Shown: positions 36,389 through 57,851 of the stretch, in pieces
How the letters are laid out: the number at the start of each line of letters is the position of its first letter
Numbering within the stretch: position 1 is the first letter of the stretch
From: Candidatus Saccharimonadota bacterium
Lineage (GTDB): Bacteria > Patescibacteriota > Saccharimonadia > Saccharimonadales > Saccharimonadaceae
Direction: 5' to 3'
NCBI GenBank assembly: GCA_017524405.1
Contig: JAFWSJ010000018.1
Location: 1-64,000 of the forward strand
DNA length: 64,000 nucleotides
Made by a program: the position numbers and the translations under genes
The notes under the pieces: generated by a model
Told to the model about the DNA's origin: nothing
Database searches by the model: none
The model's input: the letters and a program-made list of their open reading frames with translations, nothing else

Positions 36389-36465
36389 GGGTCGCTAGCT
36401 CAGTTGGCTAGAGCGCCTCGTTTACACCGAGGAGGTCGGGGGTTCGAGCCCCTCGCGACCCACCA
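36389..36465 (+). tRNA. tRNA-Val (anticodon TAC), CCA encoded
   Basis: A full cloverleaf: acceptor GGGTCGC/GCGACCC, anticodon loop TTTACAC, T-arm GGGGG-TTCGAGC-CCCTC, and genome-encoded CCA. A TATAAT box lies at 36374-36379. A hairpin terminator (AATATCCC/GGGATATT) follows at about 36474-36496, and then the structured element at 36523-36651 that repeats the last 18 bases of this tRNA. Confidence 0.97.
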
Positions 36466-36522
36466 AGTATTAAACAATATCCCACAGGGATATTTTTTAA
36501 TACTTCTTTGGTTCACGAGCAA

Positions 36523-36651
36523 GGGGCGAGAACCCAAAGGGTTCGTGCGAGCCAGGAGCCGAGCCAAGCAAAAATGCTTGCATTTTTATTTGCGAGGCGA
36601 CGCCAGCGAATCAAGGCTCCGCTAGGAGCCGCTGCCCCTCGCGACCCACCA
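36523..36651 (+). repeat. tRNA-associated structured element A, ending in a copy of the tRNA-Val 3' end
   Basis: Non-coding. The last 18 bases (36634-36651) repeat tRNA-Val 36448-36465 exactly, from the T-stem to CCA. GGGGC (36523-36527) can pair with GCCCC (36634-36638). Three hairpins lie between: GAACCC-AAA-GGGTTC (36530-36544), AAAAATG-CTTG-CATTTTT (36570-36587) and GGCTCC-GCTA-GGAGCC (36615-36630). GGAGCCGAGC and GCGAGGCGACGCC (36592-36604) are shared with element B at 41617. A terminator-like GCCC-GCGA-GGGC plus T run follows. Confidence 0.75.
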
Positions 36652-41496: not shown

Positions 41497-41572
41497 GGGG
41501 TGTTAGCTCAGTTGGTAGAGCGATTGGTTCGCAATCAATAGGTCAGGAGTTCGAATCTCCTACACTCCACCA
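41497..41572 (+). tRNA. tRNA-Ala (anticodon CGC), CCA encoded
   Basis: Acceptor GGGGTGT/ACACTCC with the G3-U70 pair that specifies alanine, anticodon loop TTCGCAA, T-arm AGGAG-TTCGAAT-CTCCT, and encoded CCA. The terminator ATGACC-GTAA-GGTCAT plus T run follows (about 41584-41607). The 21 bases at its end are copied at 41737-41757. Confidence 0.97.
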
Positions 41573-41616
41573 TTCAACGAAAAGATGACCGTAAGGTCAT
41601 ATTTTTGTTGAACTAT

Positions 41617-41757
41617 GTAGGAGATGAGAACTCGTAGAGTTCGGTAGCAGTAGGAGCCGAGCGAAAACTGAGAAATGCTTGCATTTCGGATTTTCCGAGG
41701 CGACGCCCTGCTATGTCTTGAGCGCAAGCGAAAGGCAATCTCCTACACTCCACCATT
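41617..41757 (+). repeat. tRNA-associated structured element B, ending in a copy of the tRNA-Ala 3' end
   Basis: Related to element A (36523-36651). Bases 41737-41757 repeat 41554-41574 exactly (T-loop to CCA plus TT), and the terminator that follows is also duplicated (41575-41610 and 41758-41793, about 31 of 36 identical). GTAGGAGAT (41617-41625) pairs with ATCTCCTAC (41738-41746). Hairpins: GAACTC-GTA-GAGTTC (41628-41642), GAAATG-CTTG-CATTTC (41672-41687) and CTTG-AGCG-CAAG (41717-41728). AGGAGCCGAGC and GAGGCGACGCC match element A. Confidence 0.75.
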
Positions 41758-41798
41758 TGATGAAAAGATGACCGTAGGGTCATATTTTTATTGTCGGC

Positions 41799-56903: not shown

Positions 56904-57851
56904 TTAGATATCGCTATGGAATTTCTTATGTACTTCGCGAAGCTGCGGATCGGTCACGTGCGTATAAATCTGTGTCGTCGAAATATTCGCGTGGCCGAGC
57001 AGCGATTGCACCGAGCGCAAATCTGCCCCATTCATCAATAAATCCGTCGCAAACGAATGGCGAAAAGTATGTGGCGTCACATGCTTCGTAATCCCAGCTG
57101 CGCGCACGTATTTTTCAATAATTCTCTGAATACTGCGCGGCGTCAAACGACGATAATTCCCCGAAGTGCCTTGGAGTGGCGTATTCCGCGAGTTATTAAG
57201 GAACAACGCCGGCAACGAATCTTTGCGCTCAGCTAGATAATCTTCAATCGCCTCCGCCGCCGCGTCGGTAATAAACACCGGGCGGTCCTTTTGCCCCTTA
57301 CCGCGCACCATGAATTCCTTGCGCTGCAAGTTCACATGATCGCGATTCAAATTGATTAGCTCCGACACGCGAAGACCCGACGAGAATAATAACTCCATAA
57401 TCGCGCGATCCCTAAGCCCCGTCTCCGTATCGAGCGGAATCTCTTTAAAAATGCGTTCTATTTCGTCCACGTGTAAGAATGTCACCTGCGGTCGATGCGT
57501 TCTCGGCAACTCCACGAGCGTCGGATCAAGCGTCTTAATCCCCCGCTTCGTCAAGTACTTCAAAAACCCGCGTAGCGCAACCAGATGATACGCCTGTGTC
57601 GTCACCGACAAAGTCTTGCCGTGCCCATCGCGTACCTCGTAGCGGTTCAGCCACAGGCGATACTTCCTGAGCCATTCCGGCGTAATATCGTCCGGCTTCA
57701 TATCGCCATCACTAATCTCACCGTTAAACTCGAGAATTCGCATGAGGCAAATCTCATAATTCCGCGTCGTAAAGCGGCTGCGCCCGTTCTCTACCTCGAG
57801 CGCTTCCAGGAATTCATTAATGAGATCCGCAACAAACATTCTAGAATCCAT
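56904..57851 (-). CDS. XerC/XerD-type tyrosine recombinase
   Basis: A 315-residue site-specific recombinase. SAM-like N-domain to about residue 105, then the catalytic domain: SSGLRVSELINLNRDHV (Arg I), VRGKGQKDRPVFI (Lys), TPHTFRHSFATDLL (His-x-x-Arg), LGHANISTTQIYTHV (His and the nucleophile Tyr). Size and motifs fit Xer, used to resolve chromosome dimers at dif; some Patescibacteria have only one such enzyme. It overlaps pilD by 11 bases. Whether it also acts on the tRNA-linked elements A and B is speculation. Confidence 0.92.
   Translation of the reverse strand: MDSRMFVADLINEFLEALEVENGRSRFTTRNYEICLMRILEFNGEISDGDMKPDDITPEWLRKYRLWLNRYEVRDGHGKTLSVTTQAYHLVALRGFLKYLTKRGIKTLDPTLVELPRTHRPQVTFLHVDEIERIFKEIPLDTETGLRDRAIMELLFSSGLRVSELINLNRDHVNLQRKEFMVRGKGQKDRPVFITDAAAEAIEDYLAERKDSLPALFLNNSRNTPLQGTSGNYRRLTPRSIQRIIEKYVRAAGITKHVTPHTFRHSFATDLLMNGADLRSVQSLLGHANISTTQIYTHVTDPQLREVHKKFHSDI

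Follow-up and report, generated by a model that had tools for sequence, protein, structure and literature searches.

The DNA analysed (hereafter the window) was a stretch of 64,000 nt from Candidatus Saccharimonadota bacterium (Saccharimonadaceae), covering positions 1-64,000 of the forward strand of contig JAFWSJ010000018.1 in assembly GCA_017524405.1; the genome measures about 0.9 Mb, and its genus-mates are Candidatus Saccharibacteria MAGs. A tRNA-Ala(CGC) gene with an encoded CCA (41497-41572, + strand; detected by ARAGORN and Rfam RF00005) is the host gene of the structure described here, element B, all parts of which lie on the + strand. From 5′ to 3′, these parts are a terminator hairpin (T1), the 5′ strand of an outer helix (P1), a hairpin (P2), a long arm (P3), a second hairpin (P4), a tRNA 3′ end with CCA, and a second terminator (T2). 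T1 (41573-41612) has long complementary flanks TTCAAC...GTTGAA and opens the inserted unit, as judged from the sequence and from an empty tRNA-Gly site in a related genome (G250, see below). In reverse complement, the 5′ strand of P1, TGTAGGAGAT (41616-41625), reads as the T-stem/acceptor 3′ strand of tRNA-Ala, as indicated by the fold, by an inverted repeat at the locus (41547-41564 / 41616-41633) and by the own-tRNA test given below. P2 (41628-41642; GAACTC-GTA-GAGTTC, of the general form GAAC...GTTC) was delimited from the fold and a comparison of 27 copies, and its 3′ strand is identical to the T-arm 5′ strand of the tRNA. P3 (41643-41714; covariance-model R1 match 41643-41743, and covariation) consists of a base stem, conserved blocks and a variable tip hairpin; the blocks AGGAGCCGAGC (41652-41662) and GAGGCGACGCC (41697-41707) are read as two tandem G.A motifs flanking GCC/GGC. 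P4, GTCTTGAGCGCAAGCGAAAGGC (41715-41736), was assigned from the fold and from the tracking of tRNA identity by its sequence across genomes. The following 19 nt (41737-41755), comprising the T-stem 3′ strand, the acceptor 3′ strand and CCA, are an exact direct repeat of 41554-41572 and supply the 3′ strand of P1 (41738-41747). P3 and P4 are thus an insert within a T-loop copy, preceded by an antisense T-arm copy.

A first-pass annotation had claimed that element B copies 21 bases of tRNA-Ala together with the terminator behind it. The 21 bases at 41554-41574 are indeed exactly repeated at 41737-41757, 19 of them belonging to the tRNA and two lying beyond CCA, and the repeat runs on to 57 bp at 91% identity through T2 (41756-41793), which resembles T1.

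The architecture is common to three copies on this contig. Element A (36522-36651, + strand) lies behind a tRNA-Val(TAC) gene (36389-36465, + strand) and its own T1, recognised from the sequence (AGTATTAAA...TTTAATACTT; 36466-36505, + strand), and is composed of the P1 5′ strand (36522-36527), P2 (36530-36544), P3 with P4 (36545-36633) and a tRNA 3′-end copy (36634-36651); the third copy, element C, lies behind a tRNA-Gly gene. The window contained two covariance-model matches only, in element B (41643-41743, E 9e-22) and in element A (36545-36639, E 6e-18). Folding energies of A, B and C were all at least 3 s.d. below those of shuffled sequences (z -3.0, -4.0 and -3.6). Stems that differ between A and B with pairing kept, as the same annotation had pointed out, are present in the sequence (GAACCC/GGGTTC versus GAACTC/GAGTTC, AAAAATG/CATTTTT versus GAAATG/CATTTC, and GGCTCC/GGAGCC versus CTTG/CAAG). 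A search of the window copies with the 4227 covariance models of Rfam gave no family, the only matches being to tRNA and, by chance, over element B.

Distribution and covariation of the family

An exact-core search found the element in 19 of 246 genomes of the window's family. Covariance model R1, built on P3 and P4, matched 36 of the 45 genomes of the window's genus with up to nine copies each, which bears out the earlier proposal of a conserved folded element with many genomic copies. Across the class, R1 matched 127 of 393 genomes, all but one (126) belonging to the window's own family. Copy number reached 19 per genome, as for a dispersed palindromic repeat of about 100-150 bp, counting elements with a recognisable core. 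Exact-core matches from GTDB in Streptomyces and other high-GC genomes were taken as probable chance coding matches, and two IMG/VR matches were discarded as lacking tRNA context and resembling coding DNA. Weak model matches (bits <50), which may be non-homologous and were treated separately, were seen upstream of 16S rRNA genes on either strand, or overlapping promoters (L119, L121-L123, L081; L098, L101, L103, L115, L118, L120).

Pairing was preserved when more copies were compared (27, then 107). In the alignment of 107 copies, all 24 modelled pairs showed double changes (24/24; 0/500 shuffles), and 490 cells were changed on both sides versus 115 in shuffles, while slid control structures failed; counts on alignment A6 are biased towards the structure that guided its alignment. 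Even the 'conserved' helix GGAGCC/GGCGAC was swapped for GCATCC/GGATGC or GCTTCC/GGAAGC in some copies. MAG assemblies could contain local errors, which the agreement among many independent genomes makes unlikely as a source of these patterns.

In the literature searched (mostly open-access, bioRxiv preprints lying outside it), no account of such elements in Saccharibacteria or CPR was found, and we regard the family as previously undescribed and, in essence, limited to a single family of Candidatus Saccharibacteria. The family itself, its structure, its linkage to tRNA genes and the in-frame copies described below are stated with high confidence.

Copies behind tRNA genes and the search for a mover

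Most of 106 analysed matches lay 40-90 nt behind a tRNA gene, giving 75 such cases with 15 isoacceptors. Among these 75, the tRNA 3′-end copy was exact (18/18) in 47 and matched at 17/18 positions in eight, and complementarity of the 5′ arm to its own tRNA exceeded that to tRNAs of other types in 72, so that the outer helix follows the copied T-stem as had been anticipated from A and B. In relatives, sites were found empty, filled, tandem, reordered or decayed. The empty sites that the first-pass annotation had predicted are represented by tRNA-Gly(TCC) in G250, in which tRNA-CCA is directly followed by the terminator that G000 carries behind its element; T2 is therefore the old terminator, and T1 arrived with the unit. 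At the same tRNA-Gly(TCC), 3′ or 5′ remnants were left in G197 and G171/G248. Units recurred in tandem every 173-183 bp in G193, G247, G144 and G253, and the order of two unit types behind the same tRNA-Gly was reversed between G193 (L068) and G247 (L069/L386).

At one locus (L027, 1334-1610), the element behind a tRNA-Lys has the ends of tRNA-Glu, like those of L020 and L022, which suggests movement between tRNAs. Tip sequences were homogenised within genomes (p 2e-4) and P4 tracked the tRNA across genomes (p 1e-62), the pairs being non-independent and both p values indicative; the copies are therefore mosaic. The tracking of the tRNA by P4 also gives the tRNA-linked copies the look of old residents, which counts against the mobile-element reading given below. 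In three genomes, cargo lay between tRNA-Val(CAC) and the element, namely GNAT plus isochorismatase, a serine hydrolase and a zinc-finger protein (L014 111-1597 in G236, L112 1560-2610 in G189 and L082 673-2560 in G136); each locus has an exact tRNA 3′-end repeat at its far side, and the cargo segments terminate in CCACCA.

This variable cargo makes it possible to read the tRNA sites as integron-like: the tRNA 3′ end would be a dock, and an attC-like folded single strand would be inserted and excised, sometimes with cargo, by a tyrosine recombinase that might be the lone Xer. As in integron cassettes, units lie between a fixed dock and downstream DNA, end in the dock sequence (CCA bounds them on both sides, with 18/18 repeats), form tandem arrays, change order (X-Y or Y-X behind one and the same tRNA-Gly), leave empty sites and occasionally carry different cargo, and the fold is strongly strand-biased. 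Unlike integron cassettes, the dock here is a tRNA 3′ end, most units are cargo-less, P1 differs per target, and in-gene copies occur in both orientations without bounding CCA repeats. No IntI-type integrase was found in the genus genomes (the IntI-specific domain being without a model of its own), and one strong Xer-like match was present in most of them, element-free genomes included, with only sporadic extras. Taken as an account of the tRNA-linked units, this reading is unlikely. The earlier suggestion of an attC-like recombination site of folded single-stranded DNA thus keeps some room for tRNA-linked copies, but its integron side is at odds with a recombinase repertoire that is mostly one Xer-like gene per genome. 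The only tyrosine recombinase detected in the window's genome (Xer-like) is encoded at 56949-57479 on the - strand. In many relatives, the Xer-like gene shares its contig with elements no more than tens of kb away, a proximity uncorrected for tRNA density.

Other candidate movers (Y1 transposase, IS110 Transposase_20 and extra tyrosine integrases) were rejected as absent or sporadic. Y1 was detected in one of 18 genomes tested and was missing from nearly all element-rich ones; the single gene belongs to an element-rich genome (L361, G255). REP/BIME sequences, which are served by the Y1 protein RAYT, are likewise imperfect hairpins dispersed in the genome, but the fold described here is longer and branched, and Y1 is missing in 17 of the 18 genomes. 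Having arms that match the target on either side of its fold, the element might also be RNA-guided, like the IS110 bridge RNA or TIGR, with the P1 and P2 strands as guides to the target, and TIGR stem-loop arrays have been reported in CPR bacteria (PMC12045711). Transposase_20 was found in none of 13 genomes tested (0/13) and the elements are dispersed, not arrayed, which makes such a system highly improbable.

Copies inside protein genes

Elsewhere among the Saccharibacteria of this family, genus g2 included, 16 elements were found as stop-free in-frame copies in 15 ORFs, 10 on the same strand as the gene and six on the opposite strand. The interrupted ORFs encode RecX, TrmD, a P-type ATPase, ValRS (ValS), QueA, an RNA methyltransferase, NifS, RsuA, DusB, GatA, ObgE and a TlyA-like protein; QueA is interrupted in two species at different sites, and the RNA methyltransferase is interrupted twice. 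When eight of the proteins were scanned with NCBIfam models, the families were recovered with the insert appearing as a gap, and the remaining gene names were assigned from reading the sequence. Non-host frames over the same stretches were open in only 10 of 80 cases, and stop-free host frames are therefore unlikely by chance. Copies in unrelated genes were 89-94% identical over 119-184 nt (valS/P-ATPase, 92% over 184 nt; gatA/obgE, 93% over 166 nt; queA/rsuA, 94% over 119 nt), and dispersal is thereby shown. These in-frame insertions changed the reading of element B to that of a mobile palindromic element.

Among 58 species with a match, TrmD ranged from 216 to about 306 aa owing to in-frame inserts in a single loop flanked by two conserved blocks; in the sister genus, the protein has a hotspot for in-frame inserts of many sizes. 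In the AlphaFold model of one TrmD (L341; mean pLDDT 60, a modest model), insert residues 114-181 had very low confidence and were without secondary structure, the flanks being better modelled, and the insert is predicted to be disordered. In another TrmD gene (L359), 15 bases of the flank (GAGGAAGTTTGCATC), whose protein sequence is conserved, recur exactly inverted as the distal arm GATGCAAACTTCCTC, and several ORF copies form long concentric palindromes extending into the gene. In-frame inserts without the P3 core, e.g. SEGVRSAAAREVAPAAHGDGPAGRAPK and SIRDDGSERSEEPRNDGRDEAF, were also seen in L308 (valS), L330 (queA) and L313 (obgE); they recur within and between proteins and apparently belong to core-less or related palindrome families.

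Occupation of essential genes, together with a guide-like 5′ strand that pairs with a downstream target, recalls self-splicing introns, in which an internal guide pairs with the flanking exon. Such introns are extremely improbable here, given that the host frame runs through the inserts without a stop while only 10/80 other frames are open, that the inserts stand in both orientations, and that the window copies match no intron family of Rfam.

Origin of the pairing and proposed mechanism

In an RNA fold under selection, G-U wobble pairs are expected to be far better tolerated than A-C mismatches. Helix mismatches in the elements were G-U in 77 cases and A-C in 67 (42:31 minus one linked column pair), versus 15:0 in tRNA stems of the same loci, a comparison that takes no account of relatedness among copies; wobble-tolerant covariation, with G-U well above A-C, was thus not seen. 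Two further copies (L012, L013) lie directly upstream of dnaK between divergent promoters and have CIRCE-like outer arms; the end of P4 provides a -35-like box, and the outer arm (P1) differs compensatorily between the two species. Template switching (quasipalindrome mutation) can create reverse-complement arms and introduce multi-base compensatory changes, so correcting a stem, in one step (PMC8794818); it is a mutation process and not an element, and we propose that it drives the upkeep and extension of the arms. Together with the near-equal numbers of G-U and A-C, the copies in both orientations in mRNAs and those at dnaK, the L359 arm and the concentric palindromes, this leads us to infer that the covariation arose mainly from DNA-level palindrome copying by fold-back synthesis, and not from RNA selection.

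Of the two alternatives originally drawn from the covariation, selection on a folded RNA accordingly found no support in that form, given the mismatch counts and the occurrence of both orientations inside mRNAs. A functional structured RNA kept behind tRNAs for tRNA 3′ processing, termination or regulation would agree with the covariation, the fixed orientation behind tRNAs, the k-turn-like tandem G.A motifs and the flanking terminators. It is nonetheless improbable, since G-U is not favoured over A-C, copies stand in both orientations in mRNAs and between the divergent promoters at dnaK, close relatives have the same tRNA without the element, and transcription into the element is not assured with T1 upstream. 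Pure palindrome correction would not preserve the strong strand specificity of the tandem G.A motifs and of the element's orientation towards tRNAs; this specificity suggests that some protein recognises one folded strand.

We consider element B, with a probability of about two in three, to be one copy of a mobile (selfish) family of palindromic DNA that works like the Rickettsia palindromic elements (RPE) and is spread by fold-back copying. The observations behind this reading are the four-helix fold with its covarying P3 arm, the dispersed copies, the filled, empty and decayed sites, and the target-matching arms. Confidence is good for the overall class of a selfish mobile palindrome and moderate for the fold-back template-switch mechanism; mobility is deduced from sequence patterns, and the searches described above revealed no dedicated mover. 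As proposed, a hairpin-forming DNA unit would spread by joining existing palindromes (the tRNA T-arm, the CIRCE repeat or older palindromes in genes), fold-back synthesis would write the target flank into the outer arm, and later rounds would re-perfect the arms, giving 'compensatory' changes without RNA selection. Behind tRNAs, the unit (terminator, cloverleaf and tRNA 3′ end) would come to lie between the tRNA CCA and the old terminator, which would leave the tRNA intact, and in-gene copies would be tolerated because they are stop-free, a multiple of three in length and probably an unstructured loop. A wider generalisation, in which mobile palindromes write a reverse copy of the target into their own arm at insertion without a dedicated transposase, dock at tRNA 3′ ends in integron-like fashion, as units that stack, can be re-ordered and occasionally carry cargo, and find further homes in essential proteins, is offered tentatively and is less likely than not to hold.

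RPE were reportedly described by Ogata in 2000 and 2002. According to a review (PMC2229807), they are palindromic repeats of 100-200 bp that occur between genes and in-frame in conserved proteins, with some in RNA genes. The present element is likened to them because it lies in-frame in essential genes, in both orientations, with near-identical copies in unrelated genes; this is an analogy, and not a claim of membership or homology. RPE and the coding palindromes of Wolbachia share with it the dispersal of 100-200 bp palindromes, the in-frame position in conserved proteins and the reduced genomes of host-dependent bacteria. Unlike RPE, most copies in the window's genus are tied to tRNA 3′ ends, tRNA-end copy included, and the family has a conserved four-helix fold, a tandem G.A core, target-matching outer arms, nested growth and unit stacking. 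Coding palindromes of Nematomorpha mitochondria (PMC6649704) resemble it in that stem arms are kept perfect in coding sequence, apparently by an active process, but these are perfect hairpins scattered over mitochondrial genes, whereas the present copies are homologous to one another and share a conserved core that is imperfect.

In the literature found, palindromes inserted in-frame into essential proteins of bacteria are reported for Rickettsia and Wolbachia. The family in the parasitic Saccharibacteria is an independent, more structured and tRNA-tied case, and its filled and empty sites, in well over 100 genomes, lend themselves to comparison. With it one can test how palindromes spread without a transposase, and what share of 'compensatory' covariation is due to DNA template switching versus RNA selection, a question that bears on all covariation-based RNA discovery. 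Caution is called for with annotated TrmD, ValRS, QueA and other proteins in these genomes, which bear parasitic loops.
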